Notes under the pieces: model-generated
The model's database searches: none
Told to the model about the DNA's origin: nothing
The model's input: only the letters and a program-made list of their open reading frames with translations
Program-made: the position numbers and the translations under genes
Shown: piece by piece, positions 15,250-64,000 of the stretch
Position numbering within the stretch: the first letter of the stretch is position 1
How the letters are laid out: each line of letters opens with the position of its first letter
DNA from: Entrophospora sp. SA101
Lineage: Eukaryota; Glomeromycota; Glomeromycetes; Entrophosporales; Entrophosporaceae
Direction: 5' to 3'
Assembly: GCA_958430865.1 (NCBI GenBank)
Contig: CAUDNR010004101.1
Coordinates: 31,027 to 95,026, forward strand
Length of the DNA: 64,000 nt

Positions 15250-16322
15250 ATGTCGTTTAAATTAAAATCTTTTAAATTACCATCCAAAAAAGTAATGACA
15301 TTTTTTGGAACATGCATTGGAATTTCAGGTTTAATTTATCGTGATAATGTTTTATCAAAAGAAGCAAAAAAAAACGTTCAAGATAGAGTTTCTCACTTAG
15401 CTTTAGAACCATTGGGTGTGCATGAACTGCCTAGAAAAGTATTTATATATTTGGCACCACCAGTAGGTGATGGATTGTATAAAACAAGAGAATATTTCAG
15501 GGAATATGTAAAGGTGAAAATATAAAATAAAAAGACTTTTTAATTATTATTAACACATTTTTTTATTTATCTAATTATTTATAATAATGTCTTGTTATTT
15601 TTTTTTTTTTGTTGACAAGTCAGCCAATTCTTGTTGCTGCTGCATTAGATTATGAAGTAGTTGAAGGCGCACGACGCGGAGAATTAAAATCCAAAGTATG
15701 TGAAGAAATAATACAAAAACGTCGTGATCTTTCTTCAAATACCGACAACAAGGATCCATCATCATTAAATAGAGTTGGGGATGGTGGGATTATTGTTGTT
15801 GGTCGTGTTGGTTGGGTGGAATTTCTTGAAGGATTAAATCAAGGATGTTTTTCTTCACTGGAACAACCCGCTGATGATTCCACCAAACAGGAGAATCAAG
15901 AAAATTTGGTTACATCAAAAGATCAACCACAACAAAAAGAAGATGATAATAATGATAATAATAATAATAATAATCCAACTTCTTTAAAAAAGCAAATCAA
16001 TAAATCGACTCAAGAAATACAATTTAATGAAGAAGAATTTTCAATTCCAAAAGTTGATCAAGTTGGATATATTCATTTTTATAATAGAATAGGTTGGAAA
16101 AATTTTCCTTTAAGAGTTTATCATTTTTTTAATTCGTATAAAAATTTTGAAATTGCCGGCGAAGAGGCTGTCGGAATAGTATTGGGGAAAACAAGAGATT
16201 TTAAAAATGAAGATTTGGATTTTGGAAAAGACGAAGAAATGTTTTTTAAAGATGAACTTTCTGAACCAAAACTGGATAAAAGAATTGCTAATAATCTAAA
16301 AATTTATACTCTCGGCACTTAA
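15250..16322 (+). CDS. TIM54: mitochondrial inner-membrane translocase subunit Tim54 (left-arm copy)
   Basis: Exons 15250-15513 and 15624-16322 give about 320 codons. The intron has a GTGAAA donor and TCAG acceptor, and the splice makes EYVK-PILVAAALDYEVVEG, the most conserved Tim54 block. Other family marks are a short N-terminal membrane span (about residues 15-30, TFFGTCIGISGLIY), KVFIYLAPPVGDGLY, GGIIVVGRVGWVEFLEGL, and the C-terminal FPLRVYHFFN. An Asn/Asp-rich linker interrupts the middle. Tim54 is part of the TIM22 complex, which inserts carrier proteins in the inner membrane. From 15,829 on the gene lies in the inverted duplication. This copy has Gln (CAA, 16059-16061) where the mirror copy has Pro. 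Confidence 0.9.
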
Positions 16323-16425
16323 TATAATTTATTCATGCACATTTATATTTATGATAAATTATTTATTTAATTATTAATCTGCTAATTAATCTTTTTCCAT
16401 GAACAAAATAAAATTTTAACGTTTT

Positions 16426-17338
16426 TTATCTTCCATTTCTTTCATTATTAATATCATTATTATCGTTGTGATTAATTTGATTGATTATTCTCAATTTATC
16501 AAAAGTTTTAGTAAACATAGGTCTCATTGAATGAATTTCATTTGCTCCTATACTTTTCATCTATATAATTGTTCCCGATACATAGATAATATATACAGTA
16601 TATTAGTATCATCTCTCTCCTATCGTCTTTTAAAGAAAAGAAAAAAGCAAATATAAAATTTTACCTGACGAATTGAAGGATCCAACCCCAATAAACCCTG
16701 TCTTATTTTCATTTCACGTTTTTCTTTAAGTCCTTGTAGTAAATATCTTATTTGATTTGGATTTTCTAAATCATCTTCAGCTCTTTTGTATATAATAAAT
16801 TAATTAATTGATCATGTATGTATGTATATTATTATAAAAGAATACTTACTTTTTTAATAAAATACTTGAAATTTCATTATACCAGTATGGTAAATCAGCA
16901 AAAGCACTTTCTGGCTTTTCCTCTTTTGACCTTATGTCTAGATTCTCTAATAAAAATATATATTTATAATATACAATGTGAGTACATATTGAAATACATG
17001 AGAATCTGTTATTCATTAAACTAACCAACAGTTAACCAATCAGGTTGTATGATCTTACAAACTTTCTTTTCTTTCAACATTAAGGCTGCCCATAATGGCA
17101 CTTGAGCTTTTTTAGGTGGATTAAAAGGTCCAAACTCTTTCTAAAATCAATTATATATAATAAATATTATTAACTAATATTGGTGTATTGATTAAATAGA
17201 TTAATAAAATTGATAGTTATTTACTCCGGAAATTGTGAACTTTCTTGAATTAAAGAATGGTTCAATCGTAATTAACTCATCGCTAGCAAATTGAATTAAA
17301 TCCATTCGAGTAAAATTTGTTACATCTGTATTTTCCAT
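16426..17338 (-). CDS. PSF2: GINS complex subunit PSF2 (left-arm copy)
   Basis: Five exons on the minus strand: 17338-17225, 17140-17026, 16946-16850, 16782-16665, 16560-16426, giving 192 codons, close to the usual ~185-200. The family signature is KEFGPFNPPKKAQVPLWAAL, then KVCKIIQPDWLTVENL, ADLPYWYNEISSILL, and a C-terminal helix region with NEIHSMRPMFT. GINS (Sld5-Psf1-Psf2-Psf3) joins Cdc45 and Mcm2-7 to make the replicative helicase. All introns are GT-AG and short (68-104 bp). A poly-Asn/Asp tail (NHNDNNDINN) ends the protein. It lies tail to tail with TIM54, with 103 bp between their stop codons. Confidence 0.93.
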
Positions 17339-18394
17339 TATTTAACGTTGCGATTATTTTTTACGTGTTGATCGACATTATATTTTTGAAACACGAACTT
17401 TTAATCGTTTTTAAACAATATGATGATTGACGACCAATGGTTCATAATAAACATCTCCATTAGGGATTCATTAATTTTTATTAAATTTGCTGAAAAAAAT
17501 ATTTTCATTTATTTGTTTTGTTTTGTAGGTTTAGGGACAATGATGTCAATTATTGTGTCGATTACATTTAATATATTATTAATGAAATGAAAATGAACAG
17601 GATTAAATTCACAACTAGTTGTGATAATAGACATTTATCATGAAATTTTTTCAGGTTATAAATTTCTCCTTTTCTAAAGATTTGCCATCAACATCTTTAC
17701 CATTATTTTTTTATCTTTGGGCAATTTCCTCTTTTTCCTTTTCTCGCTTATCTTCTTTGTTTTTAATTGTGGTCATCATTGTATATATAAGATGATTGTA
17801 AAATGGATATTGTGGAATAATAATCCATATTAAATTAAATTAAATTTCTCAAATAATAAATAAAAATAACATTTACTTACAAATGATCAAATAATATATC
17901 ACAATCAAATAACATAAATGTCATCTTTAAATCATGCAATAACAATTATAGGAGAAAACCTAAAATCTATTTGACAACATCAATTATCCAAGGATTAATA
18001 GATATTTCAAGAAAGTTAAAAGAAAACCGAGAAAGAGAAGTGGTATAAAATTTTTTTTTGCTAATGGTAAATGAAATAGTTCCAGTTTGTAATATAAACT
18101 CTGCTAATTTTTATCCTTCAAAATCCTATTACTATATACAATTAAAACAAAAAAAAAAATCAAATTAATTATTCCACGAAATAAAAATAAAAGTAGGATT
18201 CTTTATAATTTTGTATTCAAGCATGTATAAAAACATTTTTGATTATTATAAACTATATATGAAAAGAAAGTTTAAATGAAATTATCATTATTAATTATAA
18301 TTGGATAATGAATCAATAATAATAATTTAATTTTTATTGTGAAATTATTACAAATATCATGTATATAATACATAATATAATTTTTCTAATTTAT
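17339..18394. other. intergenic region between PSF2 start and EED 3' end (left arm)
   Basis: About 1 kb, AT-rich. Short Met-initiated frames exist on both strands (e.g. plus 17,918, 18 codons; minus near 17,780, Lys/Glu-rich, 22 codons), but they break quickly and do not resemble a known protein. Nothing is supportable as a gene. Confidence 0.4.
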
Positions 18395-20417
18395 CTATGT
18401 TATCATTTCATTGTCATCATCATTATAGTCATTGTCGTCATCGTTATTGTCGTTATCATCATCATTATTGTCATTGTTGTCAATTTCCAAATTATCAGAT
18501 GACACTATTTGTTCCAATTTCCAGCAACAGATAGACGCGTCTTCACATACAGCAATCATCCATTGTTTGTTTTTTGAAAATGCAATTTGTCTGATTGTAG
18601 TATCACTATACTTACTATTATACTTGATGCATTCTAATAAATCAGAGTTTGCTACATCTTTACCTTTCTTTTTCTTGCCTTTGGCAGTTTTTTTCCCACA
18701 AATTTTAAATATCTTTTTCTTTGTATAATTAGCAATAACATTTGATATTTGATTCATGTCCCATAAAAATATATCCCCTGTTTGATTTCCGATGACAAGT
18801 TGCTCTTGATCAGGTGACAGTGTAAAACGTAGAAACCAAATATCACAATTTTCAAAATCTAATTCGCAATGAATATCATAACTTGTTGAGGGCTGTAATT
18901 TTAATTAATATATAGATAGATATATATGTAATAATGTAGTATAAGTATTACTCATATTTTCTCTAATTCATAAAGTTTAAACAATCACTTACCTTACTTG
19001 GACCCCCAACAACAACACTAGTTATTGTAGACTTGTCCTCGACTGGTGACAATTTAATTTTTGGTTTCCACATTATTATAGTAGTTGTCGCAGCACATCT
19101 AGACAATATATAATCGCCATACCACCTTACACAATCAACATAATTGTTGTGTATATCAATTGATGAGAATATTGGAAAATGCACAAAAAGTGGTGTTATA
19201 ATATAATCACCAGTGGTACAACACTGTCCGCTATATCTTTGTGGTTTACTGTTTTTAGATACATCGATTGCATTTTGAATAATTGGTGTGCACAAAGTCC
19301 ATATTTTTATTGCATGATCCATCCCAGCAGATGCTAAGAAATTACCAGATATGTGTATATCCTAACAATTATATATATCACATGAAAATTAATTAAATAC
19401 AAATTTCAATATGTATATAAAAGAGAATATAATTACAATGCTTAAAACCGGTTCACGATGTCCACACTCGCCACCAAATATCACGATTGGTTGACATGTT
19501 TTCAAATCCCATAGTCTTATTGAAAAATCTTTACTGCCTGAAAATAACAAATTTGTATCTCTTGGATGATTTTGTATTTCATTAATTTCCTTAGTGATCA
19601 AACAAAAATCCAAAGTTCAATATTTAGTGTGTATGTATGTAAAAAAATATTGATTGTGACAAACTACTTACATCTCCATGTCCAATAAGTTTCTTGTTCA
19701 TGCATTTGACAGATGATGGAATTAGCTTAAAGAAATTTAAAAAAGTTTTTATGACAATATAATAATAATAATAATCATTATTATCATTACCTTTATTAAA
19801 CGTCCTGTACAAACATCCAAGATTTTAATAATTCCTGTAGATCCACCAGCGGCAATCCATTGTGAATCAGTATCTTGATCATATATCCATGCACAACAAT
19901 AAAAATTTTCAGGATCCTTTAAAGGAACAATATCCTGAGAAAATAATTTTTTTTTTAATCAGATGAAAGATTTATCCTTATTAAAGTGAGAAAATTGACT
20001 TTATAAAAATTACATTAACCTGCTCATATTGATATAAATTCGGTTCTGAAGATTTCCTACCATCGATAGATACGACTATAATCTAAATAGGGTATCATCA
20101 TCATCATCATCATTATTATGTTTAATAAATTTAATAAAATGAATATATTAAATAATATAACAATAAATAACAAATATTCATACTGTAGAGCCACCAACTA
20201 TAGCAAAATTTGAGTCACCAGAATTGTCAAATTTATTGAAACTAACACCATAAAATGGGGCTTTAATTTGATCCTTTTTACCATGGTGAAAAAAGTTCCT
20301 TTTTAAGATAAAAATAATGACAGTCGTTTGAATTAAATAAATTGACTAGTTAATCGGTTAATTAATTACCTTACTACTATAAACATATTTCAACGAATAC
20401 TCTTCTGTTGGTGTCAT
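18395..20417 (-). CDS. EED: Polycomb protein EED/ESC, WD40 subunit of PRC2 (left-arm copy)
   Basis: Eight exons on the minus strand: 20417-20370, 20273-20184, 20082-20020, 19934-19791, 19725-19672, 19589-19437, 19361-18993, 18892-18395; 472 codons (human EED is 441). Diagnostic blocks match EED in order: PFYGVSFN, DPENFYCCAWIYD, GSTGIIKI, IGHGDEINEI, HPRDTNLLFSGSKD, RLWDL, IFGGECGHREPVLS, AGMDHAIKIW, HNNYVDCVRW, GDYILSR, CDIWFLRFTLS and AVCEDASICCW. EED binds trimethylated H3K27 and stimulates EZH2. Its aromatic cage appears kept as Tyr24, Tyr79, Trp326 and Phe327 (human F97, Y148, W364, Y365). Insertions are a Lys-rich loop (GKKTAKGKKKKGKD) in the last blade and a poly-Asn/Asp C-terminus. 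The exon 2 acceptor was chosen for frame and homology. Frames look intact. Confidence 0.94.
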
Positions 20418-21194
20418 TTTTCAAATGTTTTTATATTGTGAATATTATTACGTGTGATGATTTGTGTAACTGTATCATGTTATATTAACGAATCAGTTCG
20501 GTGCAACATTCAGGACTGGTTGTTGGATTTAATGTCTTTTTGGTAATTTTATCTATAAAAAAAAGGAATTTGCAGTTTCACGAAAATGGTTACTTTGTAT
20601 AATATAGTCTATTGATCATGTTGGTGTGTTGATATTGAGTTGAGGAGATGTTGAAAAAATCAATATCAAATTAGATTTTTTGAAAACCACTTGACGTAAG
20701 TAAAAACACTTGACATAAGTAAAAATGTTTGATAAAAGGTAAAAACGCTTGATACAAGCAAGCAATAATGATAATGATAATGATAAAATAGAATTATAAA
20801 AAGTTCCAAATCATGTAAAAATGTGTCCCGGGGATGAATAAAGAATTGTTAGATCATTGCATGTATATTTCAATGATGCAAGAAAAATAATTATCATGGA
20901 AGTTTACAAATGTTATAATTTGAATTAGAACTTTTACTATTTACTTTTGCCTTTTTCTTTTTTACAAATCTTTATTATTACATTTCATAAAATGTAAAAA
21001 ATCAAATTGTCTTTACATACATATTAAATTGATTTTTTTAGAATTTTTGACTTTTGAAGTTAACTATGTGTAATAGTAATACGTAATAATATTAATAATG
21101 TGCTTGAGCTGTCTTTGGTATCTGAGTTTGAAGTTGCATAGATTGATCAATGTTGGTAATTTTACATAGCACATACGACAGGTTTTGGTACATA
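20418..21194. other. intergenic region upstream of EED, with a short tandem repeat
   Basis: 20,688-20,760 contains four degenerate ~20-bp units of the form CTTGACRTAAGTAAAAAYA. A (TGATAA)n run follows at 20,767-20,785. Otherwise AT-rich, with no gene. Confidence 0.5.
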
Positions 21195-21340
21195 CATATG
21201 TAAACTCGATAAGTCGGTCTCGCGATAAGTCGGCCAAAATTTTTCTTAATATTTAAGTAATTTAATTCGATAAGTCGGTTTACTCGATAAGTCTGTCATA
21301 TGTGCTCATCCCCACATGACCGACTTATCGAATGTATTTG
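21195..21340. mobile_element. Tigger-like MITE with CGATAAGTCGG repeats (left arm)
   Basis: A 146-bp unit flanked by TA (21,193 and 21,341). The left end CTCGATAAGTCGGTC is mirrored by GACCGACTTATCGA at the right. Two further CGATAAGT motifs lie inside, so binding-site-like words appear on both strands. It has the same size and plan as the MITE at 42,372-42,514. Confidence 0.6.
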
Positions 21341-21546
21341 TAAGTTTTAATTTTGTTTTCTATTTTTATAAATTTTAAATCTTCAAAGATTTTTTTTTAT
21401 TGTTGAATCATGATAAATCGACTGGTGATTTTAAAGGCAATCAAATATACGAAAAAAATTGTTTGTTACACATCACACAAAAATCTCATATTCATTAATA
21501 TTAAAACAAACACCAAGTCGAATTTTATATTTTATATCTTTATATA

Positions 21547-23194
21547 ATGTCATACAATAAACTATTATCATCGTTATCACCAGAAAGAGAGAATTTTGTG
21601 CGTAAAATTAATAATGAAATGCGTAATAATGCCAGTATTAGTTGTGATAGAGAAAGTAGAAAAGATTTTTTTTTTTTATTGGTCAAAAAAAACAAGGAGC
21701 TTTCTGAAAATGAAAAAGAATATTGTAAAGAAAAGTTTATTTATGAGTTTGAATTAGAGAATGCAAGAGATAAAGTGGGAAAACCAAAAGAATGTAACAA
21801 GTGTAAATTGACAAGATACTCTGATAGGTTCTGTGAAGGCTGTATTAGTTTACAATTACAGAGTCTTTTCACCACTTGGACATCTGGAAATAACATAATT
21901 GATGATTTTATTCAACAATGTCAAATGAAACCATCTCTTCCAAACTATATTTTAGAATGGATACCTTTTGAACAATTTAAAAAAGTGACAAAATTGACAG
22001 AAGGTGGATTTAGTTCGATTTTTACTACCACATGGACAAGAGGAAGAATATTTGATTACGACGAAAACAAAAAGGAATTTAGTTATTTAGGAGGTAGTGG
22101 ACAGAGAGTAGTATTAAAAAGTTTAAACAATTCAAGTAATCCAGGAAAAGGCTTTTTTGATGAGGTTGGTAGTTGTCTTTTAAAACAATGTTGTATTATA
22201 TAATACTAATTTGTTTTATGTTCAATAGGCAGTGAATTATTGTAAAATTAAATCAGGGTTGATTGTTAATTGTCATGGCATAACTAAATTCCCAGATAAT
22301 GGAAATTATGCAATAGTTTTAAATTATTTATCAGAAGGAAATTTAAGGGGTTATTTACAAAAAAAAATTTAACATTAAAAGACAGAATTAGAATTTTTGG
22401 TTATTTATGTTGGGCATTAAATGATATACATCAGAAAGATTTAATCCATTGTGATTTACATAGTGGCAATATATTAATAAATGGAGGTTGTTGTTATATT
22501 ACAGATTTGGGATTATGTGGACCAGTTGATGATGAATCATCAAATAAAGTCTATGGGATTGTATCATATGTTGCACCCGAGCTACTTAGAGGTAAAATTG
22601 ATACAAAAAACACCAAAGAAACTGATATTTATAGTGTTGGGATGTTAATGTGGGAAATATTTGCAGGCCATACACCATTTGATGATAGAGCTCACAATCA
22701 TCGTTTGATTTTTGATATATGCGAAGGTTTAAGACCACCAATACTACCTGGAATGCCTGATTATTATGTGCAAATGATGCAGAGGTGTTGGGATGTGGAT
22801 CCATCAAAAAGACCAACTAGTAAAGAGCTGTTTGAATTTGCTAAAAATAAACATGATGAAATTATTAAAAATTATGATAGTAATAATACTACTAGTAGTA
22901 GCAGTGATAGTAGTACTTTGCAGCAAGCACACAAATCACATCCAGATGCATACCATACAAGTAGAATATTAGATGAAGAGATTGCTAAATCTAAAAGCTT
23001 TAAAAGTTATACAAGTAATAGTTCGTTAAATAATCTTGATTGTAACTCTTTTTTCTAAAATGTTAACAAAGGTGAATAAATTTTCATTATTAATTAATTT
23101 GAAATTACTAATCATTGATTATTACTAATGATATTAATTAATTAATTAATTAACATTAGATTCTAGTGACAATAGTAAAAGAATTGTTGAATGA
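21547..23194 (+). pseudogene. Glomeromycotina-type protein kinase with one frameshift (left-arm copy)
   Basis: Exon 1 is 21547-22164: a Cys-rich element CNKCKLTRYSDRFCEGC, then TTWTSGNNIIDDFIQQC, WIPFEQF, a glycine loop TEGGFSSIF and VVLKSL. Exon 2 starts at 22229 and reads in frame to a run of nine A at about 22,369-22,377. There one A is missing, and the frame then shifts to an open reading to 23,058: IHCDLHSGNIL, ITDLGL, APELL, SVGMLMWEI, CWDVDPSKRPT, AYHTSRILD. A further short exon (23160-23194, ending NSKRIVE) can be joined from a donor at 23,042, as in the kinase at 1.9-3.5 kb. The same A9 is in the mirror copy, so the lesion predates the duplication or is a shared homopolymer error. 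Without it the gene would be a complete, active-looking kinase. Confidence 0.8.
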
Positions 23195-23827
23195 CTAATT
23201 TAGTCTCTGCTATAAATTTATTATTTTCTTTTTATTTATTTTTATTTCATTCTTATTTTATTTCTTAATATTTTGAAATAATAAACTTTTCTTGTTGAAT
23301 GATGATATTGTGAGGTATCATTTTGGCTAATTAACAATTATGGCTCAACTTTTGGGTTACCCTTGTCGGTTAATAACTCACAATAACCAGATAGCTGAAT
23401 ATGGCCCTTTTGCAATGCTATTAAGTTCTTTTTATTCACTTGTGATTGATTTGTTTTAGTCGTTTGCTGACAGATTGCAAACTCGATTTGATTTACTTGC
23501 AAGACAACTTAAGTAGCTTGTTCAACGGCTTTACGTTTACGACTACAATAATATTACTTCATTAACACCCACTAGTTAACCAACGTTAGTCCTAACCTTG
23601 CTTGCTTCCTCACTAAAGTAAATAAACATGGCTTGTTACCAAAGTTCCACCAACTACACTTGTTGCTTTTATCAAAGCGCTTTAAACAAAGAAAATAAGA
23701 CAACGTTTTTATTTTTATTTTATTTTTAAAAGTTCATTGACAATTATTTTTATTTAATAAAAATAACGATTATATCACGGTTTATTTTATTAGAATGTAT
23801 TATTTTCCTCTGAGAGGACCCGAAGTT
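23195..23827. other. intergenic stretch (left arm)
   Basis: AT-rich, with (TTAA)n near 23,135-23,155 just upstream. No gene or transposon end recognised. Confidence 0.4.
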
Positions 23828-23935
23828 ATGCGAATACCAGAAGTTATCCTTAATGAAATTTTTATTGATCACTACAATAAGGATAAAGATAGAGCTGTGT
23901 TTATTATCGCAAGTAGCTTAATTAATCAATATTGA
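23828..23935 (+). pseudogene. F-box-like N-terminal fragment (left arm)
   Basis: ATG at 23,828 begins MRIPEVILNEIFIDHY, with DRAVFIIASSLINQY later. This is the spacing of an F-box (hydrophobic-Pro-hydrophobic, then xSxxxNxxW). A TGA at 23,933 sits where the family usually has Trp, and weak similarity continues after it (YYKNFHNYL). A nonsense mutation in a former F-box gene is the simplest reading. Confidence 0.35.
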
Positions 23936-25129
23936 TATTATAAAAACTTCCATAATTATTTACACAGTAATAATTATAAAAGGCTTTTGCGTAAATTTCA
24001 TTTGATACACTAAAATTAGTTGACCCTGGAACATAAATAAAGTGCCAAATCCCTAATCGATGATTTTACAATGTATCACGTTATTAATATAAGGAATGTT
24101 CGAGTTTAGTAGTAAATGAGTGTGTGGGAACTGAATTTGTATTCAGCAAAACTTGGCTCCTTGGGAACAATTAATGAAACAAGTTTCACAAGAAAATTGA
24201 AAAGAAAACCTTGAAATATATACAATATTTATATAGTTTTTTTTTTTTTTGTGAGCTTTTATATTTTATAGCGATTTTACTTACGTTATTTTGACTTTAT
24301 GGCAGCGAATTTGACGTTACAAATGTGGTAACATTTCGTCAAACAACATTAGTTCGGTGTATCAAAATTAGCACAGCATCCTATCATGTATTCGTATGAT
24401 AAATGATGTAATTTTTAATAAAATAAATTATTTCATGGCCAGATGGTGCATTGATCGAGTAGTCCATATGCGCTGATTTTGTTTGAACCCCAAAATCCAG
24501 TACGGTATGATCATAACGTTATGAATACTTTATGCTAGCAAAAACCCATTGGTTTTGAGGTGGAGGCCATTTGGTTTGACGGACTATCGAATAGTAAAAT
24601 AGTTTTTTTTGGCGGAGCAAATAAATTTTTTGGGGTTAATTATCATTCTATTGACCAGTTTACACATCATGTTTAACGTATTTAACGTAGAGACACAATA
24701 AGATGTAGGGTTTGAGAAAAGGATCCAAAAAACCAAATCGGCTGATGTGATTTGATCTAATAAAATCTACTGAAACAAATAAACAAAAGATAAATTTATT
24801 ATTTATCAAAGAAACTTTAAAGTATATAAATATGATTGATTTTGGACTGAGATTGATGTATCAAAAAAAAATTTTTTGCAACATTAAAAATCATTAACAT
24901 TATACATTTAAATATTATTTTGAATAATTCTTTAAAAAAAATGCTGTTTAAATTGACTACTACTACTTGTGTGATCGATCCAATCATTAACACCAAAAGA
25001 ACAAAATTAATGTTTTCGCAATAAAAGCTGTTTGTTTATTTGTTTGTTGTTGTTTTTGATTTTAATATTAATGCAGAAAGCAAGCGAATAAAAAACATTC
25101 GAGAGGCGAATCGGTTTGTTTTTTATTCA
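23936..25129. other. non-coding stretch with a dispersed-repeat segment (left arm)
   Basis: No gene is seen. The part from about 24,750 to 25,080 recurs, diverged and reverse-complemented, at about 42,540-42,810 (shared words include AGCTTTTATTGCGAAA and TACATCAATCTCAGTCCAAA as read in the 42-kb copy). Confidence 0.6.
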
Positions 25130-25600
25130 TTTATTTATCTATACATCCCAGATCAAAGGTCAATTTGATCGATTAAATGTTTTTTTCAAACCTACATCAC
25201 CATAGAAGAATAAGCTTTACAAATTTGATTGTTAAAAAAAAAAGATCTTTTGTCTTGATCTTTTCCTCGTGTTTATCCCAACTAAAGGTTAATTTGATCG
25301 ATCAGATGTTTTTTTCAAGTCTACTTCACCATAAAAGAATGAATTTCAATTGTTAAAAAAATCAACTAAGCTTTTTTTTTCTTTAATTAAAAGAAAAAAA
25401 GATCCTTCGCAAAGAAGAACCCTCGTGTGAATCAAAAGCCATTTGCGAATTTCGATTGTTAAAATCTTTTGTCCTGATCTTTTCCTCGTGTTTTTTTTTC
25501 ATCTATCGCTATAGAAGAATAAGCTTCATGCAAACATCAAATGTCATTTACAAATTTCGATTGTTTAAAAAAAATCAACTAAGCTTTGTTTTCTTAATCA
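25130..25600. repeat. degenerate tandem repeat, three long units (left arm)
   Basis: Three units share GATCTTTTCCTCGTGTTT, AAAGGTYAATTTGATCGAT, CACCATARAAGAAT and TTCRATTGTTAAAAAAATCA in the same order. They start near 25,135, 25,255 and 25,470; the third is rearranged. Confidence 0.65.
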
Positions 25601-26139
25601 ATCGGCATATTTTATTTGTTTTTCCCGAAAGGAAATTTTATTGATTTCTCCAAAAGGAAATCAGGTCATCCACTATCCTTCAAATGGTCAAAATCAAAGT
25701 TTTTTCTTATCCAGATCACCACCCACTATCTCTCTCAAATGGTCAAAATCCAAAAAAAATTTTTTAATTCAACAAAAAAAAAATTTTGCACATATTGTTT
25801 GTTTATCAATCATTTTTTTTTTAAATTGACAACGAATAAAACGTTTTTGAACCACGGTCTCGTGACCAGAAAATATTACTAACGCGTTGTGTGACGACAT
25901 GCCGAGGTAAAGGTTCCAAGACAAGACCATCAGTTTTTGGTCATTTTGAACGGTCCGAAACGTCGGTGTAAGACCTAACGGTAGACAGCGGTCGACACCA
26001 CGCAAAAAACATCTAAAGCGAAACACGATTTCCTTTCAGTCAAATATCTGTTTCGCTCAACCCTGACGTTTTTTCAGTTTCACAAATCATGACAAACAGT
26101 TAGCAATTGGGATTCGCACGGTACGGTGACCACAACCAT

Positions 26140-26900
26140 TTATCATTAACACAATTAATTAACACAAATAAGAAACGAAACATTTGCCGTGTCACGACCA
26201 CCTTTCAAAATCAGTAAGGCGAGCGACCTTCGTGCAGGTTTCTCGCTGATTGTCTCCTTTTGCGTTTAGCCGCACTTGGTTTTTTCGGCTTTTGGCGCGA
26301 TCAACGTTTTCACCATATTTGGCGAAAATTGTGTCGTGCGTAAAATGCTTCGTTTCTTAATAGATTCAATTGCAAGCGCTGCATGCAAATGCTTCGCAAG
26401 GTGAGGAGAGGCATGATCAATGAACCAGCAAAATTCTATATTTTTCAAACCTAATTTTTTGGAAAAGAATTTTTTGTTTTCGTTGGGTGGTAAATTTCAA
26501 AAAAAAAAATTTTTTATTTTTCTGAAATCGATCTGTGATTCTTTATTCTTTATTCTTTCTTTGATGATGTTGTACGTGAAAATGAAATTGTGTGAATTCG
26601 CAATTCACATATGTGAAATTCAAATTAGCCAATCAGAATTTCACCCACTCCATAATATTTCAATGTAAATACCTTTTTTCCACGTGATGAACGTTTATCG
26701 TGCAATAATAATAATTTTTTTTTCCAACCGAAGAGAACTATTTGGTAAGAATAAAAAGTTTTATTTATTTTACATTTACGAAGAGCTATTTAATTTCAAC
26801 AATCGAATTATTGTTTTTTGTTATTTTATTTTATACTAGAATAACTTTTTGGTGGTGGCGAAGCATCTTTCTTTTTTCGTTTAATATTTAGTCAGTGTGA
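26140..26900 (-). repeat. dispersed repeat A, copy 1 (left arm)
   Basis: The same block occurs at 29,018-29,810, 31,505-32,016 and in the mirror arm at 52,930-53,690. Shared words (as read on the opposite strand) include TCTATTAAGAAACGAA, GCGCCAAAAGCCGAAAAA, CGCAAAAGGAGACAATC and CACGGCAAATGTTTCG. One frame inside can be read as APKAEK...KRKRRQSARNL, a basic stretch, but it is short and broken between copies. Origin unknown. Arm copies carry about 118 bp (near 26,555-26,670) absent from the 29-kb and 31-kb copies. Confidence 0.75.
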
Positions 26901-27146
26901 AGAGGATCATACCATTGATTTGCTATTATTAAAAACATTCGTGTTTTTTGGATCGTACCATTGATTTTGTTTAAAGTGTTACAATTTACGAATTATCATT
27001 TGTCCATTGATTTAGAAAAGCATTATGCGTTTAATTATTTATTTATTTGTTTATTATGTTTATTACTAAAAACATTTTTTACTATTATTATCATATGTCC
27101 TGTTTTTTTGGATCATTGGTTTGTTTACTTTTAAGAAAAGCATTAT

Positions 27147-29810: not shown

Positions 29811-29999
29811 ATTCCGCGCATCTTATTATTATCCCTTGACCTTCGAAATCCTCAACTACTCTATATATGTATTGAAATAATATTACGTATTACTTCCAAG
29901 CTGCAATGCAAACAGGTCTGTTTGTTGTGCATTACTTACTGAGGCCAAGTTTTTGATGTTGGCGTTGATGGCAATGAAAAATTAATCGTAGATTGTTGC

Positions 30000-38990: not shown

Positions 38991-39000
38991 GNNNNNNNNN
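38991..39000. other. assembly gap (ten N)
   Basis: A run of N joins two contigs. It lies about 0.9 kb left of the symmetry centre of the inverted duplication (39,914.5) and interrupts repeat E. Confidence 0.99.
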
Positions 39001-39364
39001 NTGATGGTGACAATTTGTCAGATGTTCGCATTCTTTAAAGGACTAGATCAACCGGCTGGAAAAAATAATATCAACTAATATACCAAAGGGTTGCCACCCA
39101 ACGATTATAAAATTTACATTAGCCTGTCATAATGCCAGCTGCACAATGTGTTACTCCTCGAGATGATTAAAATAAAATGTCAAACTTGCACGCGTTTATC
39201 AGAGTAAATAATTCGTTTATTGCATAATTATCAAAATAATACTCAAAAATAAAAACCTCCTTTTATTTTTATATTATTTTCAATACTTTCATAATCCAGT
39301 AAAAACAATACAAATAAGTAAAACGTCCAATAATAAATCATTGAATCCATTTTGATGATGTCTC

Positions 39365-42366: not shown

Positions 42367-42371
42367 ACGTA

Positions 42372-42514: not shown

Positions 42515-42539
42515 TATTACGAATAGAAACCATGCATTA

Positions 42540-50173: not shown

Positions 50174-50235
50174 TTTTATTATTGTTATAATTATATTTTT
50201 TTTAGTGAGAAAAAAATGTTATTTTTAAACAAATA

Positions 50236-50320
50236 GATTACATAATTAATTAATTAATTAATTTAATGATTTAATGATTTAATGATTTAATGATTTAATG
50301 ATTTAATCTTCAAAAAAAGA
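50236..50320. repeat. 8-bp tandem repeat (ATGATTTA)n
   Basis: Five to six consecutive units after a (TTAA)n run, 60-150 bp upstream of the promethin-like start codon. Confidence 0.85.
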
Positions 50321-52682: not shown

Positions 52683-52929
52683 ATAATGCTTTTCTTAAAA
52701 GTAAACAAACCAATGATCCAAAAAAACAGGACATATGATAATAATAGTAAAAAATGTTTTTAGTAATAAACATAATAAACAAATAAATAAATAATTAAAC
52801 GCATAATGCTTTTCTAAATCAATGGACAAATGATAATTCGTAAATTGTAACACTTTAAACAAAATCAATGGTACGATCCAAAAAACACGAATGTTTTTAA
52901 TAATAGCAAATCAATGGTATGATCCTCTT

Positions 52930-53690
52930 CACACTGACTAAATATTAAACGAAAAAAGAAAGATGCTTCGCCACCACCAAAAAGTTATTCTAGTATAAAA
53001 TAAAATAACAAAAAACAATAATTCGATTGTTGAAATTAAATAGCTCTTCGTAAATGTAAAATAAATAAAACTTTTTATTCTTACCAAATAGTTCTCTTCG
53101 GTTGGAAAAAAAAATTATTATTATTGCACGATAAACGTTCATCACGTGGAAAAAAGGTATTTACATTGAAATATTATGGAGTGGGTGAAATTCTGATTGG
53201 CTAATTTGAATTTCACATATGTGAATTGCGAATTCACACAATTTCATTTTCACGTACAACATCATCAAAGAAAGAATAAAGAATAAAGAATCACAGATCG
53301 ATTTCAGAAAAATAAAAAATTTTTTTTTTTGAAATTTACCACCCAACGAAAACAAAAAATTCTTTTCCAAAAAATTAGGTTTGAAAAATATAGAATTTTG
53401 CTGGTTCATTGATCATGCCTCTCCTCACCTTGCGAAGCATTTGCATGCAGCGCTTGCAATTGAATCTATTAAGAAACGAAGCATTTTACGCACGACACAA
53501 TTTTCGCCAAATATGGTGAAAACGTTGATCGCGCCAAAAGCCGAAAAAACCAAGTGCGGCTAAACGCAAAAGGAGACAATCAGCGAGAAACCTGCACGAA
53601 GGTCGCTCGCCTTACTGATTTTGAAAGGTGGTCGTGACACGGCAAATGTTTCGTTTCTTATTTGTGTTAATTAATTGTGTTAATGATAAA
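52930..53690 (+). repeat. dispersed repeat A, copy 4 (right arm)
   Basis: Mirror of the 26,140-26,900 copy. At 53,031-53,040 it preserves the single GTTGAAAT that is the empty site of the 29.1-kb MITE. Confidence 0.75.
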
Positions 53691-54228
53691 TGGTTGTGGT
53701 CACCGTACCGTGCGAATCCCAATTGCTAACTGTTTGTCATGATTTGTGAAACTGAAAAAACGTCAGGGTTGAGCGAAACAGATATTTGACTGAAAGGAAA
53801 TCGTGTTTCGCTTTAGATGTTTTTTGCGTGGTGTCGACCGCTGTCTACCGTTAGGTCTTACACCGACGTTTCGGACCGTTCAAAATGACCAAAAACTGAT
53901 GGTCTTGTCTTGGAACCTTTACCTCGGCATGTCGTCACACAACGCGTTAGTAATATTTTCTGGTCACGAGACCGTGGTTCAAAAACGTTTTATTCGTTGT
54001 CAATTTAAAAAAAAAATGATTGATAAACAAACAATATGTGCAAAATTTTTTTTTTGTTGAATTAAAAAATTTTTTTTGGATTTTGACCATTTGAGAGAGA
54101 TAGTGGGTGGTGATCTGGATAAGAAAAAACTTTGATTTTGACCATTTGAAGGATAGTGGATGACCTGATTTCCTTTTGGAGAAATCAATAAAATTTCCTT
54201 TCGGGAAAAACAAATAAAATATGCCGAT

Positions 54229-54699
54229 TGATTAAGAAAACAAAGCTTAGTTGATTTTTTTTAAACAATCGAAATTTGTAAATGACATTTGATGTTTGCA
54301 TGAAGCTTATTCTTCTATAGCGATAGATGAAAAAAAAACACGAGGAAAAGATCAGGACAAAAGATTTTAACAATCGAAATTCGCAAATGGCTTTTGATTC
54401 ACACGAGGGTTCTTCTTTGCGAAGGATCTTTTTTTCTTTTAATTAAAGAAAAAAAAAGCTTAGTTGATTTTTTTAACAATTGAAATTCATTCTTTTATGG
54501 TGAAGTAGACTTGAAAAAAACATCTGATCGATCAAATTAACCTTTAGTTGGGATAAACACGAGGAAAAGATCAAGACAAAAGATCTTTTTTTTTTAACAA
54601 TCAAATTTGTAAAGCTTATTCTTCTATGGTGATGTAGGTTTGAAAAAAACATTTAATCGATCAAATTGACCTTTGATCTGGGATGTATAGATAAATAAA
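54229..54699. repeat. degenerate tandem repeat, three long units (right arm)
   Basis: Mirror of 25,130-25,600. Confidence 0.65.
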
Positions 54700-55893
54700 T
54701 GAATAAAAAACAAACCGATTCGCCTCTCGAATGTTTTTTATTCGCTTGCTTTCTGCATTAATATTAAAATCAAAAACAACAACAAACAAATAAACAAACA
54801 GCTTTTATTGCGAAAACATTAATTTTGTTCTTTTGGTGTTAATGATTGGATCGATCACACAAGTAGTAGTAGTCAATTTAAACAGCATTTTTTTTAAAGA
54901 ATTATTCAAAATAATATTTAAATGTATAATGTTAATGATTTTTAATGTTGCAAAAAATTTTTTTTTGATACATCAATCTCAGTCCAAAATCAATCATATT
55001 TATATACTTTAAAGTTTCTTTGATAAATAATAAATTTATCTTTTGTTTATTTGTTTCAGTAGATTTTATTAGATCAAATCACATCAGCCGATTTGGTTTT
55101 TTGGATCCTTTTCTCAAACCCTACATCTTATTGTGTCTCTACGTTAAATACGTTAAACATGATGTGTAAACTGGTCAATAGAATGATAATTAACCCCAAA
55201 AAATTTATTTGCTCCGCCAAAAAAAACTATTTTACTATTCGATAGTCCGTCAAACCAAATGGCCTCCACCTCAAAACCAATGGGTTTTTGCTAGCATAAA
55301 GTATTCATAACGTTATGATCATACCGTACTGGATTTTGGGGTTCAAACAAAATCAGCGCATATGGACTACTCGATCAATGCACCATCTGGCCATGAAATA
55401 ATTTATTTTATTAAAAATTACATCATTTATCATACGAATACATGATAGGATGCTGTGCTAATTTTGATACACCGAACTAATGTTGTTTGACGAAATGTTA
55501 CCACATTTGTAACGTCAAATTCGCTGCCATAAAGTCAAAATAACGTAAGTAAAATCGCTATAAAATATAAAAGCTCACAAAAAAAAAAAAAACTATATAA
55601 ATATTGTATATATTTCAAGGTTTTCTTTTCAATTTTCTTGTGAAACTTGTTTCATTAATTGTTCCCAAGGAGCCAAGTTTTGCTGAATACAAATTCAGTT
55701 CCCACACACTCATTTACTACTAAACTCGAACATTCCTTATATTAATAACGTGATACATTGTAAAATCATCGATTAGGGATTTGGCACTTTATTTATGTTC
55801 CAGGGTCAACTAATTTTAGTGTATCAAATGAAATTTACGCAAAAGCCTTTTATAATTATTACTGTGTAAATAATTATGGAAGTTTTTATAATA

Positions 55894-56001
55894 TCAATAT
55901 TGATTAATTAAGCTACTTGCGATAATAAACACAGCTCTATCTTTATCCTTATTGTAGTGATCAATAAAAATTTCATTAAGGATAACTTCTGGTATTCGCA
56001 T
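55894..56001 (-). pseudogene. F-box-like N-terminal fragment (right arm)
   Basis: Mirror of 23,828-23,935 with the same premature TGA. Confidence 0.35.
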
Positions 56002-56634
56002 AACTTCGGGTCCTCTCAGAGGAAAATAATACATTCTAATAAAATAAACCGTGATATAATCGTTATTTTTATTAAATAAAAATAATTGTCAATGAACTTT
56101 TAAAAATAAAATAAAAATAAAAACGTTGTCTTATTTTCTTTGTTTAAAGCGCTTTGATAAAAGCAACAAGTGTAGTTGGTGGAACTTTGGTAACAAGCCA
56201 TGTTTATTTACTTTAGTGAGGAAGCAAGCAAGGTTAGGACTAACGTTGGTTAACTAGTGGGTGTTAATGAAGTAATATTATTGTAGTCGTAAACGTAAAG
56301 CCGTTGAACAAGCTACTTAAGTTGTCTTGCAAGTAAATCAAATCGAGTTTGCAATCTGTCAGCAAACGACTAAAACAAATCAATCACAAGTGAATAAAAA
56401 GAACTTAATAGCATTGCAAAAGGGCCATATTCAGCTATCTGGTTATTGTGAGTTATTAACCGACAAGGGTAACCCAAAAGTTGAGCCATAATTGTTAATT
56501 AGCCAAAATGATACCTCACAATATCATCATTCAACAAGAAAAGTTTATTATTTCAAAATATTAAGAAATAAAATAAGAATGAAATAAAAATAAATAAAAA
56601 GAAAATAATAAATTTATAGCAGAGACTAAATTAG

Positions 56635-58282
56635 TCATTCAACAATTCTTTTACTATTGTCACTAGAATCTAATGTTAATTAATTAATTAATTAATATCA
56701 TTAGTAATAATCAATGATTAGTAATTTCAAATTAATTAATAATGAAAATTTATTCACCTTTGTTAACATTTTAGAAAAAAGAGTTACAATCAAGATTATT
56801 TAACGAACTATTACTTGTATAACTTTTAAAGCTTTTAGATTTAGCAATCTCTTCATCTAATATTCTACTTGTATGGTATGCATCTGGATGTGATTTGTGT
56901 GCTTGCTGCAAAGTACTACTATCACTGCTACTACTAGTAGTATTATTACTATCATAATTTTTAATAATTTCATCATGTTTATTTTTAGCAAATTCAAACA
57001 GCTCTTTACTAGTTGGTCTTTTTGATGGATCCACATCCCAACACCTCTGCATCATTTGCACATAATAATCAGGCATTCCAGGTAGTATTGGTGGTCTTAA
57101 ACCTTCGCATATATCAAAAATCAAACGATGATTGTGAGCTCTATCATCAAATGGTGTATGGCCTGCAAATATTTCCCACATTAACATCCCAACACTATAA
57201 ATATCAGTTTCTTTGGTGTTTTTTGTATCAATTTTACCTCTAAGTAGCTCGGGTGCAACATATGATACAATCCCATAGACTTTATTTGATGATTCATCAT
57301 CAACTGGTCCACATAATCCCAAATCTGTAATATAACAACAACCTCCATTTATTAATATATTGCCACTATGTAAATCACAATGGATTAAATCTTTCTGATG
57401 TATATCATTTAATGCCCAACATAAATAACCAAAAATTCTAATTCTGTCTTTTAATGTTAAATTTTTTTTTGTAAATAACCCCTTAAATTTCCTTCTGATA
57501 AATAATTTAAAACTATTGCATAATTTCCATTATCTGGGAATTTAGTTATGCCATGACAATTAACAATCAACCCTGATTTAATTTTACAATAATTCACTGC
57601 CTATTGAACATAAAACAAATTAGTATTATATAATACAACATTGTTTTAAAAGACAACTACCAACCTCATCAAAAAAGCCTTTTCCTGGATTACTTGAATT
57701 GTTTAAACTTTTTAATACTACTCTCTGTCCACTACCTCCTAAATAACTAAATTCCTTTTTGTTTTCGTCGTAATCAAATATTCTTCCTCTTGTCCATGTG
57801 GTAGTAAAAATCGAACTAAATCCACCTTCTGTCAATTTTGTCACTTTTTTAAATTGTTCAAAAGGTATCCATTCTAAAATATAGTTTGGAAGAGATGGTT
57901 TCATTTGACATTGTTGAATAAAATCATCAATTATGTTATTTCCAGATGTCCAAGTGGTGAAAAGACTCTGTAATTGTAAACTAATACAGCCTTCACAGAA
58001 CCTATCAGAGTATCTTGTCAATTTACACTTGTTACATTCTTTTGGTTTTCCCACTTTATCTCTTGCATTCTCTAATTCAAACTCATAAATAAACTTTTCT
58101 TTACAATATTCTTTTTCATTTTCAGAAAGCTCCTTGTTTTTTTTGACCAATAAAAAAAAAAAATCTTTTCTACTTTCTCTATCACAACTAATACTGGCAT
58201 TATTACGCATTTCATTATTAATTTTACGCACAAAATTCTCTCTTTCTGGTGATAACGATGATAATAGTTTATTGTATGACAT
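56635..58282 (-). pseudogene. Glomeromycotina-type protein kinase with one frameshift (right-arm copy)
   Basis: Exon 1 is 58282-57665, and exon 2 runs from 57600 to 56788 or, unspliced, to the stop at 56771. The possible last exon is 56669-56635. Both main coding segments are identical to the left-arm kinase, including the nine-A run (here T9 at about 57,452-57,460) that breaks the frame after GNLRGYLQKK. The duplication therefore gives no independent evidence on whether the lesion is real. Confidence 0.8.
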
Positions 58283-58488
58283 TATATAAAGATATAAAAT
58301 ATAAAATTCGACTTGGTGTTTGTTTTAATATTAATGAATATGAGATTTTTGTGTGATGTGTAACAAACAATTTTTTTCGTATATTTGATTGCCTTTAAAA
58401 TCACCAGTCGATTTATCATGATTCAACAATAAAAAAAAATCTTTGAAGATTTAAAATTTATAAAAATAGAAAACAAAATTAAAACTTA

Positions 58489-58634
58489 CAAATACATTCG
58501 ATAAGTCGGTCATGTGGGGATGAGCACATATGACAGACTTATCGAGTAAACCGACTTATCGAATTAAATTACTTAAATATTAAGAAAAATTTTGGCCGAC
58601 TTATCGCGAGACCGACTTATCGAGTTTACATATG
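58489..58634. mobile_element. Tigger-like MITE with CGATAAGTCGG repeats (right arm)
   Basis: Mirror of 21,195-21,340. Confidence 0.6.
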
Positions 58635-59411
58635 TATGTACCAAAACCTGTCGTATGTGCTATGTAAAATTACCAACATTGATCAATCTATGCAACTTCA
58701 AACTCAGATACCAAAGACAGCTCAAGCACATTATTAATATTATTACGTATTACTATTACACATAGTTAACTTCAAAAGTCAAAAATTCTAAAAAAATCAA
58801 TTTAATATGTATGTAAAGACAATTTGATTTTTTACATTTTATGAAATGTAATAATAAAGATTTGTAAAAAAGAAAAAGGCAAAAGTAAATAGTAAAAGTT
58901 CTAATTCAAATTATAACATTTGTAAACTTCCATGATAATTATTTTTCTTGCATCATTGAAATATACATGCAATGATCTAACAATTCTTTATTCATCCCCG
59001 GGACACATTTTTACATGATTTGGAACTTTTTATAATTCTATTTTATCATTATCATTATCATTATTGCTTGCTTGTATCAAGCGTTTTTACCTTTTATCAA
59101 ACATTTTTACTTATGTCAAGTGTTTTTACTTACGTCAAGTGGTTTTCAAAAAATCTAATTTGATATTGATTTTTTCAACATCTCCTCAACTCAATATCAA
59201 CACACCAACATGATCAATAGACTATATTATACAAAGTAACCATTTTCGTGAAACTGCAAATTCCTTTTTTTTATAGATAAAATTACCAAAAAGACATTAA
59301 ATCCAACAACCAGTCCTGAATGTTGCACCGAACTGATTCGTTAATATAACATGATACAGTTACACAAATCATCACACGTAATAATATTCACAATATAAAA
59401 ACATTTGAAAA

Positions 59412-61434
59412 ATGACACCAACAGAAGAGTATTCGTTGAAATATGTTTATAGTAGTAAGGTAATTAATTAACCGATTAACTAGTCAATTTATTTAATTCA
59501 AACGACTGTCATTATTTTTATCTTAAAAAGGAACTTTTTTCACCATGGTAAAAAGGATCAAATTAAAGCCCCATTTTATGGTGTTAGTTTCAATAAATTT
59601 GACAATTCTGGTGACTCAAATTTTGCTATAGTTGGTGGCTCTACAGTATGAATATTTGTTATTTATTGTTATATTATTTAATATATTCATTTTATTAAAT
59701 TTATTAAACATAATAATGATGATGATGATGATGATACCCTATTTAGATTATAGTCGTATCTATCGATGGTAGGAAATCTTCAGAACCGAATTTATATCAA
59801 TATGAGCAGGTTAATGTAATTTTTATAAAGTCAATTTTCTCACTTTAATAAGGATAAATCTTTCATCTGATTAAAAAAAAAATTATTTTCTCAGGATATT
59901 GTTCCTTTAAAGGATCCTGAAAATTTTTATTGTTGTGCATGGATATATGATCAAGATACTGATTCACAATGGATTGCCGCTGGTGGATCTACAGGAATTA
60001 TTAAAATCTTGGATGTTTGTACAGGACGTTTAATAAAGGTAATGATAATAATGATTATTATTATTATTATATTGTCATAAAAACTTTTTTAAATTTCTTT
60101 AAGCTAATTCCATCATCTGTCAAATGCATGAACAAGAAACTTATTGGACATGGAGATGTAAGTAGTTTGTCACAATCAATATTTTTTTACATACATACAC
60201 ACTAAATATTGAACTTTGGATTTTTGTTTGATCACTAAGGAAATTAATGAAATACAAAATCATCCAAGAGATACAAATTTGTTATTTTCAGGCAGTAAAG
60301 ATTTTTCAATAAGACTATGGGATTTGAAAACATGTCAACCAATCGTGATATTTGGTGGCGAGTGTGGACATCGTGAACCGGTTTTAAGCATTGTAATTAT
60401 ATTCTCTTTTATATACATATTGAAATTTGTATTTAATTAATTTTCATGTGATATATATAATTGTTAGGATATACACATATCTGGTAATTTCTTAGCATCT
60501 GCTGGGATGGATCATGCAATAAAAATATGGACTTTGTGCACACCAATTATTCAAAATGCAATCGATGTATCTAAAAACAGTAAACCACAAAGATATAGCG
60601 GACAGTGTTGTACCACTGGTGATTATATTATAACACCACTTTTTGTGCATTTTCCAATATTCTCATCAATTGATATACACAACAATTATGTTGATTGTGT
60701 AAGGTGGTATGGCGATTATATATTGTCTAGATGTGCTGCGACAACTACTATAATAATGTGGAAACCAAAAATTAAATTGTCACCAGTCGAGGACAAGTCT
60801 ACAATAACTAGTGTTGTTGTTGGGGGTCCAAGTAAGGTAAGTGATTGTTTAAACTTTATGAATTAGAGAAAATATGAGTAATACTTATACTACATTATTA
60901 CATATATATCTATCTATATATTAATTAAAATTACAGCCCTCAACAAGTTATGATATTCATTGCGAATTAGATTTTGAAAATTGTGATATTTGGTTTCTAC
61001 GTTTTACACTGTCACCTGATCAAGAGCAACTTGTCATCGGAAATCAAACAGGGGATATATTTTTATGGGACATGAATCAAATATCAAATGTTATTGCTAA
61101 TTATACAAAGAAAAAGATATTTAAAATTTGTGGGAAAAAAACTGCCAAAGGCAAGAAAAAGAAAGGTAAAGATGTAGCAAACTCTGATTTATTAGAATGC
61201 ATCAAGTATAATAGTAAGTATAGTGATACTACAATCAGACAAATTGCATTTTCAAAAAACAAACAATGGATGATTGCTGTATGTGAAGACGCGTCTATCT
61301 GTTGCTGGAAATTGGAACAAATAGTGTCATCTGATAATTTGGAAATTGACAACAATGACAATAATGATGATGATAACGACAATAACGATGACGACAATGA
61401 CTATAATGATGATGACAATGAAATGATAACATAG
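59412..61434 (+). CDS. EED: Polycomb protein EED/ESC, WD40 subunit of PRC2 (right-arm copy)
   Basis: Exons 59412-59459, 59556-59645, 59747-59809, 59895-60038, 60104-60157, 60240-60392, 60468-60836 and 60937-61434. The translation is the same as the left copy, with all cage residues and WD40 blocks present and no frame damage. If both arms are real, the genome has two identical EED genes in opposite orientation, about 39 kb apart, and PRC2 dosage could change. Confidence 0.93.
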
Positions 61435-62490
61435 ATAAATTAGAAAAATTATATTATGTATTATATACATGATATTTGTAATAATTTCACAATAAAAATT
61501 AAATTATTATTATTGATTCATTATCCAATTATAATTAATAATGATAATTTCATTTAAACTTTCTTTTCATATATAGTTTATAATAATCAAAAATGTTTTT
61601 ATACATGCTTGAATACAAAATTATAAAGAATCCTACTTTTATTTTTATTTCGTGGAATAATTAATTTGATTTTTTTTTTTGTTTTAATTGTATATAGTAA
61701 TAGGATTTTGAAGGATAAAAATTAGCAGAGTTTATATTACAAACTGGAACTATTTCATTTACCATTAGCAAAAAAAAATTTTATACCACTTCTCTTTCTC
61801 GGTTTTCTTTTAACTTTCTTGAAATATCTATTAATCCTTGGATAATTGATGTTGTCAAATAGATTTTAGGTTTTCTCCTATAATTGTTATTGCATGATTT
61901 AAAGATGACATTTATGTTATTTGATTGTGATATATTATTTGATCATTTGTAAGTAAATGTTATTTTTATTTATTATTTGAGAAATTTAATTTAATTTAAT
62001 ATGGATTATTATTCCACAATATCCATTTTACAATCATCTTATATATACAATGATGACCACAATTAAAAACAAAGAAGATAAGCGAGAAAAGGAAAAAGAG
62101 GAAATTGCCCAAAGATAAAAAAATAATGGTAAAGATGTTGATGGCAAATCTTTAGAAAAGGAGAAATTTATAACCTGAAAAAATTTCATGATAAATGTCT
62201 ATTATCACAACTAGTTGTGAATTTAATCCTGTTCATTTTCATTTCATTAATAATATATTAAATGTAATCGACACAATAATTGACATCATTGTCCCTAAAC
62301 CTACAAAACAAAACAAATAAATGAAAATATTTTTTTCAGCAAATTTAATAAAAATTAATGAATCCCTAATGGAGATGTTTATTATGAACCATTGGTCGTC
62401 AATCATCATATTGTTTAAAAACGATTAAAAGTTCGTGTTTCAAAAATATAATGTCGATCAACACGTAAAAAATAATCGCAACGTTAAATA
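61435..62490. other. intergenic region between EED and PSF2 (right arm)
   Basis: Mirror of 17,339-18,394; nothing supportable as a gene. Confidence 0.4.
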
Positions 62491-63403
62491 ATGGAAAATA
62501 CAGATGTAACAAATTTTACTCGAATGGATTTAATTCAATTTGCTAGCGATGAGTTAATTACGATTGAACCATTCTTTAATTCAAGAAAGTTCACAATTTC
62601 CGGAGTAAATAACTATCAATTTTATTAATCTATTTAATCAATACACCAATATTAGTTAATAATATTTATTATATATAATTGATTTTAGAAAGAGTTTGGA
62701 CCTTTTAATCCACCTAAAAAAGCTCAAGTGCCATTATGGGCAGCCTTAATGTTGAAAGAAAAGAAAGTTTGTAAGATCATACAACCTGATTGGTTAACTG
62801 TTGGTTAGTTTAATGAATAACAGATTCTCATGTATTTCAATATGTACTCACATTGTATATTATAAATATATATTTTTATTAGAGAATCTAGACATAAGGT
62901 CAAAAGAGGAAAAGCCAGAAAGTGCTTTTGCTGATTTACCATACTGGTATAATGAAATTTCAAGTATTTTATTAAAAAAGTAAGTATTCTTTTATAATAA
63001 TATACATACATACATGATCAATTAATTAATTTATTATATACAAAAGAGCTGAAGATGATTTAGAAAATCCAAATCAAATAAGATATTTACTACAAGGACT
63101 TAAAGAAAAACGTGAAATGAAAATAAGACAGGGTTTATTGGGGTTGGATCCTTCAATTCGTCAGGTAAAATTTTATATTTGCTTTTTTCTTTTCTTTAAA
63201 AGACGATAGGAGAGAGATGATACTAATATACTGTATATATTATCTATGTATCGGGAACAATTATATAGATGAAAAGTATAGGAGCAAATGAAATTCATTC
63301 AATGAGACCTATGTTTACTAAAACTTTTGATAAATTGAGAATAATCAATCAAATTAATCACAACGATAATAATGATATTAATAATGAAAGAAATGGAAGA
63401 TAA
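62491..63403 (+). CDS. PSF2: GINS complex subunit PSF2 (right-arm copy)
   Basis: Exons 62491-62604, 62689-62803, 62883-62979, 63047-63164 and 63269-63403, 192 codons. Identical to the left copy where compared, with intact frames. Tail to tail with the partial TIM54 copy. Confidence 0.93.
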
Positions 63404-63506
63404 AAAACGTTAAAATTTTATTTTGTTCATGGAAAAAGATTAATTAGCAGATTAATAATTAAATAAATAATTTATCATAAATATAAATGTGCATGAATAA
63501 ATTATA

Positions 63507-64000
63507 TTAAGTGCCGAGAGTATAAATTTTTAGATTATTAGCAATTCTTTTATCCAGTTTTGGTTCAGAAAGTTCATCTTTAAAAAACATTTCTTCGTCT
63601 TTTCCAAAATCCAAATCTTCATTTTTAAAATCTCTTGTTTTCCCCAATACTATTCCGACAGCCTCTTCGCCGGCAATTTCAAAATTTTTATACGAATTAA
63701 AAAAATGATAAACTCTTAAAGGAAAATTTTTCCAACCTATTCTATTATAAAAATGAATATATCCAACTGGATCAACTTTTGGAATTGAAAATTCTTCTTC
63801 ATTAAATTGTATTTCTTGAGTCGATTTATTGATTTGCTTTTTTAAAGAAGTTGGATTATTATTATTATTATTATCATTATTATCATCTTCTTTTTGTTGT
63901 GGTTGATCTTTTGATGTAACCAAATTTTCTTGATTCTCCTGTTTGGTGGAATCATCAGCGGGTTGTTCCAGTGAAGAAAAACATCCTTGATTTAATCCTT
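63507..64000 (-). CDS. TIM54: Tim54, right-arm copy, partial at window end
   Basis: The C-terminal part of exon 2 only; the exon start (expected mirror position 64,205) and exon 1 lie outside. The sequence equals the left copy except CCA (Pro) for CAA (Gln) in the segment KVD(Q/P)VGYIHFYN, base 63,769. This region lies between the Asn-rich linker and the conserved FPLRVYHFFN block. Confidence 0.88.
   Translation of the reverse strand, partial: GLNQGCFSSLEQPADDSTKQENQENLVTSKDQPQQKEDDNNDNNNNNNPTSLKKQINKSTQEIQFNEEEFSIPKVDPVGYIHFYNRIGWKNFPLRVYHFFNSYKNFEIAGEEAVGIVLGKTRDFKNEDLDFGKDEEMFFKDELSEPKLDKRIANNLKIYTLGT

Follow-up and report, generated by a model that had tools for sequence, protein, structure and literature searches.

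Does a stretch of fungal DNA in which a block of core genes is mirrored almost without error reflect a real duplication in the nucleus, or did the arrangement arise on the way to the sequence file? This question is raised by a 64,000-nucleotide stretch (hereafter the window) from the arbuscular mycorrhizal (AM) fungus Entrophospora sp. SA101, which corresponds to bases 31,027-95,026 of contig C1596 (166,651 bp) in a genome assembly of 101.3 Mb and 2,123 contigs (G000; C1596, C533 and similar labels denote its contigs). A preliminary description of the window had reported two inverted arms of at least 11,318 bp that carry genes for TIM54, PSF2, EED and a protein kinase, separated by a 25.5-kb unique spacer, and had proposed three possible origins: a very recent event, gene conversion that is still ongoing, or two nuclear haplotypes joined in the assembly. 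From the sequence evidence set out below, we consider it highly likely that the mirror duplication is a fold-back chimera of multiple displacement amplification (MDA), combined with redundant contigs placed in one scaffold, and not a real feature of the genome.

We compared the arms base by base. Mirroring about the coordinate sum 79,829 was reproduced exactly as described, with one mismatch (window 16060) across 15829-27146 and a register that never shifted. The reported arm length held as a lower bound, being cut by the window end: arm A (+ strand) spans window 3787-27146 (C1596:34813-58172), and arm B (- strand), placed by mirror comparison and exact extents, occupies window 52683-64000 and runs on to C1596:107068. 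Furthermore, the number of arms proved to be four instead of two. A 1-kb arm probe gave four full matches in the genome, every one on C1596, and the joined pieces of this contig carry the unit as copies A (+), B (-), C (+) and D (+). Copies A and B were exact over 12,273 and 11,086 bp on either side of a single-nucleotide polymorphism (SNP), and base identity extended over 21,683 bp between B and C and over 26,200 bp between C and D. The SNP, at window 16060 (+ strand), is the sole difference within the shared core and encodes Gln in copy A and Pro in copies B, C and D of TIM54. Pro also occupies this site in P0129, a protein recorded under the name Entrophospora candida, and in the SA101 protein P0130, whose TIM54 tail matches that of B, C and D without a difference. 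Past copy C, at C1596:134635-135262, there is a further junction, in direct orientation: with no overlap, the sequence switches to the interior of the kinase region that lies left of the unit and matches it exactly over 628 bp.

The turn between B and C has a distinct structure. Here the unit is read on its reverse strand as far as CAATTTGTT and then resumes on its forward strand, again at CAATTTGTT, the junction being a 9-nt inverted overlap; in the ordinary arrangement, 1,963 bp separate its two members. Copy A has this arrangement: there, the left member CAATTTGTT is at 1815-1823 (+), the right member AACAAATTG is at 3787-3795 (+), and the 1,963 bp between them (1824-3786) hold a kinase-like gene and correspond to the loop of the B/C palindrome. 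The loop itself measures 2,026 bp and includes an exact 63-bp tandem duplication that is missing from A. Contig C533 has the same layout as A without any turn; it matches A over C1596:32,739-36,616, interrupted by a single mismatch and three small gaps, and then leaves the unit. Among 200,000 random draws of inverted junctions in this DNA, 0.0175% reached 9 nt.

Two further repeats were seen. An exact 385-bp tandem duplication on C1461 (L027:834-1602) resembles the 63-bp one of the loop in C, and both look like unmerged overlaps. In addition, window 5471-5590 (C1596:36497-36616) and L025:4246-4347 hold a mobile-looking repeat whose ends, judged by eye, are alike in opposite orientation; since C533 departs from the unit at one end of this repeat, it is a likely point of misjoining.

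Published MDA data describe junctions of the kind seen at the B/C turn. In a set of 475 MDA chimeras obtained from a single E. coli cell, 85% were inverted, more than 70% of junctions were primed at 2-21 complementary nucleotides, and 337 of 406 inversions spanned less than 10 kb (PMC1855051). In human data, more than 95% of chimera overlaps measured 3-13 nt with a peak at 7, and partners lay mainly within 5 kb, with 80-280 nt as the preferred distance (PMC5372508). The B/C turn is an inverted join with a complementary overlap of 9 nt, inside the 3-13 nt range, and its partners lie less than 5 kb apart. Palindromes occurred in 43.6% and 47.8% of the reads of two whole-genome-amplified Arabidopsis samples and in 11.8% of gorilla reads, compared to 0.5% in a non-amplified control, and inverted duplications present in gorilla Y scaffolds went undetected in the compared contigs once correction had been applied (PMC6218980). 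MDA followed by Nanopore sequencing likewise yielded palindromic reads with multiple inversions (PMC13265396). The unit further resembles phi29-made chimeras and palindromic long reads in that repeated fold-backs give several copies and that inverted duplications pass into assemblies. Its arms of 21.7 kb, known from a scaffold and not from reads, are longer than the average read length given in PMC6218980 (about 5-9 kb).

SA101 itself was sequenced by Illumina from MDA-amplified single nuclei and by Nanopore from MDA-amplified pools of nuclei, and the authors ascribe duplications to their workflow 2 (PMC6987183). We infer that the analysed assembly descends from these data, because the spacer and TIM54-tail protein sequences are identical to SA101 ones. 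During MDA, phi29 polymerase would have folded back at the 9-nt inverted microhomology and produced an inverted chimera, which would then have been assembled as the gapless B/C palindrome, and assembly or scaffolding would have added A and D, as redundant versions of the locus, to the same scaffold across 10-N gaps. The B/C turn would accordingly be a product of MDA rather than of the cell.

The connections between the remaining copies were consistent with this. A run of 10 N lies in the spacer at window 38992-39001 (C1596:70018-70027) and a second, at C1596:136,887-136,896, separates C from D; we read both as scaffold gaps. Because the first run lies between A and B, this pair is connected only across N. 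A real segmental palindrome would be expected to be continuous across both inner junctions; we found the B/C turn gapless and 10 N between A and B. Longer N runs at 10,354-15,692 and 27,084-31,026 of C1596 are perhaps gaps, perhaps not. The spacer described previously is present (27147-52682) and retains a weak likeness (77%) near both arms, but it is not unique. C1596:61744-69617, in its left part, also occurs on C1392 (C1392:23963-31854) at 99.6% identity, and C1596:61744-69074 occurs on C731 (C731:11443-18774) at 99.9%. This presence of one spacer part on three contigs at 99.5-100% is a further instance of assembly redundancy.

We next asked how genes expected once behave across the same assembly. 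RNA-polymerase and MCM genes are normally single-copy. Such genes were searched for genome-wide, and matches were grouped by contig and by equal score, a grouping of our own; C555, C1799 and C2074 carry matches of Rpb2 and Rpb1 type that look bacterial, and these were excluded from the counts. Three eukaryotic Rpb2-type genes were seen, one single (C1447) and two multi-copy. One of the latter occurs three times on C1359 with equal scores, at a direct offset of 19,290 and with a mirror sum of 82,828 for both exon matches, and the other occurs twice on C459, again with equal scores and with a mirror sum of 39,111 for all four exon matches. Among three Rpb1-type genes, one was single (C275) and two formed equal-score pairs on separate contigs; two of the four MCM genes were likewise single and two formed such pairs. 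Six of the ten control genes seen were therefore multi-copy, and two of the ten were mirrored within a contig. A real segmental palindrome would be expected to be specific to its locus, and by coordinates and scores the Rpb2-type genes on C1359 and C459 are mirrored too. Since unrelated core genes are multi-copy in this assembly, faulty assembly fits better than biology at one locus, and the possibility raised in the preliminary description, that genes for replication, import and Polycomb function are truly doubled, is not borne out.

Other contigs were also considered. C1461 and C238 were candidates for further exact palindromes, as some of their match coordinates mirror exactly; their letters gave 3.1-3.4 kb at 98.7-99.1% identity, and they were not counted as evidence. 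On C11, C1480, C1334 and C630, copies in direct orientation within one contig are known as constant offsets only. The similarity searches score the best candidates only; one of them gave no match on C1596 and another gave short ones alone, so that absence from such results proves nothing. The bacterial-looking matches consist of rpoB-type (Rpb2) and rpoC-type (Rpb1) matches close together (C555:21529-24653, C1799:20128-23246 and C2074:38673-41696), with in-frame TGA in the rpoB matches. Mollicutes-related bacteria read TGA as Trp, and these contigs perhaps belong to Mollicutes-related endobacteria retained in the assembly.

Several observations weigh against an MDA and assembly origin. Natural fold-back amplification, as in the models of origin-dependent inverted-repeat amplification (ODIRA) and breakage-fusion-bridge cycles, yields the same kind of junction as the B/C turn, and this turn lies inside a 66,859-bp gapless stretch. 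The copies of TIM54 that were found are confined to C1596. Of the six multi-copy control genes, four are unmirrored pairs on different contigs, and mirroring on C1359 and C459 was judged from the positions of exon matches and their equal scores rather than from the bases themselves. The inverted duplications on C1461 and C238, which were read in part, may be real paralogues. The partner distance of 1,963 bp at the B/C turn is within the published range yet beyond the preferred 80-280 nt (PMC5372508). Finally, in PMC6987183, assembly 3n has few duplicated core genes, T7 endonuclease was applied to the Nanopore DNA, the word "chimera" is missing from the searched main text, and none of the tabulated SA101 assemblies has exactly 101.3 Mb and 2,123 contigs.

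Two other explanations have to be set against these data. In one, a real and very recent palindromic amplification took place in the nucleus, starting with replication-fork fold-back at the 9-nt inverted pair and continuing with more copies. The microhomology at the junction, the near-zero divergence and the alternation of A (+), B (-) and C (+) all agree with this, and natural palindromic amplification by ODIRA or breakage-fusion-bridge cycles also gives alternating orientation, a short inverted repeat at the turn and near-identical copies. Unlike in those systems, however, copies of the unit are linked over N runs, the 10-N runs being the sole link of A to B and of C to D, and unrelated housekeeping genes of this assembly also have copies of equal score, either mirrored or direct. 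Palindromes maintained by gene conversion, of the Y-chromosome type, share the long near-perfect arms, but the unit differs from them in its four copies, which include a direct pair, and in its abrupt ends in multi-copy sequence. Moreover, in P0130, which derives from a public 4,039-bp SA101 contig, PSF2 exon 1 and the TIM54 tail are fused and read in a single direction. In each of the copies A-D, PSF2 and TIM54 are on opposite strands, and therefore this contig should hold a separate inverted join of its own. The implied join involves the same genes but differs from the one at the B/C turn, which argues against a real amplification, as does the MDA origin of the SA101 data in PMC6987183. Altogether, a real amplification appears very improbable, and equally improbable is its full form, a genuine fourfold amplification of COX10, TIM54, PSF2, EED and the kinase in nuclei of an AM fungus that began at the 9-nt fold-back and hit RNA-polymerase genes too.

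In the other explanation, two haplotypes or paralogous loci share a 22-kb block that was collapsed or recently converted and has alternative flanks on either side, and the assembler traversed these in several combinations. The flanks give this some substance: A shares its right flank with B, whereas C shares a different one with D, and the left flank of D departs from that of A at many positions, up to C1596:34152, and agrees exactly from 34153 onward. This scenario leaves the fold-back turn at the 9-nt overlap unexplained, however, and the shared core changes abruptly at both ends, where it enters multi-copy kinase genes and a minisatellite-like stretch, the left flank being kinase sequence with many relatives across the genome; it is at such multi-copy kinase genes and other repeats that misjoins are expected. 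We regard a shared block of this kind as the least probable of the explanations. A haplotype join was rejected as the main cause, as the core is base-identical but for one base and the flanks change abruptly. Of the origins first proposed, the assembly-level cause thus stands, and the haplotype join is not its best form given the identical core, the abrupt ends and the microhomology at the fold-back turn. An MDA fold-back chimera with redundant contigs remains the explanation we favor.

The genes of the region were largely as first described. TIM54, in two exons (15250-16322, +; Pfam PF11711), was found four times in the genome for each exon, always on C1596. PSF2, of the GINS family (16623-17338, -), has four exons chosen by eye, which when joined matched Pfam PF25005 and PF05916. 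A search of the genome with PF05916 gave no match, PSF2 itself included; because this search overlooked PSF2 and the MCM search gave only four genes, such family searches evidently miss genes split by introns. The EED-like WD40 gene (18398-19616, -) matched solved Polycomb EED chains by phmmer over 18398-18904 (E 2.1e-12), and its remaining exons gave generic WD40 or weaker matches only. The protein-kinase gene of copy A (21547-23058, +) has Pfam support for 22300-23055 and is mirrored in B at 56771-58282. To the left, exons of a protein-kinase gene of a multi-copy family (1934-3403, +) matched PF07714/PF00069 and have many genomic relatives. A WD40 gene (12207-13316, +) is the putative ARPC1 of the preliminary description, from which the name is taken; a generic WD40 match was obtained for 12207-12563, and no family match for 13020-13316. 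COX10, a UbiA prenyltransferase (13808-15148, -; Pfam PF01040 and named homologues), recurs beyond position 64,000, as had been anticipated, because it lies inside the exactly copied unit. In the protein collection COX10 is represented on two contigs, the longer of 36,367 bp, possibly from separate assemblies.

The spacer contains a single-exon open reading frame of 643 amino acids (35776-37707, -) without a Pfam match. Over the aligned part, its product shows 100% identity with proteins of Entrophospora sp. SA101, and of the eight proteins matched, seven are from this strain and one is from Rhizophagus clarus; it perhaps represents a lineage-restricted protein family of AM fungi.

Thus, the mirror duplication is present in the sequence file, and very probably it arose as an artefact, in the laboratory and during assembly, of copying fungal DNA from single nuclei. 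A control by genes expected once, together with mirroring of exon coordinates, would flag assemblies of this kind. Because even RNA-polymerase subunits appear mirrored, copy numbers, gene-family expansions and duplications derived from this assembly of Entrophospora sp. SA101 should not be taken at face value.

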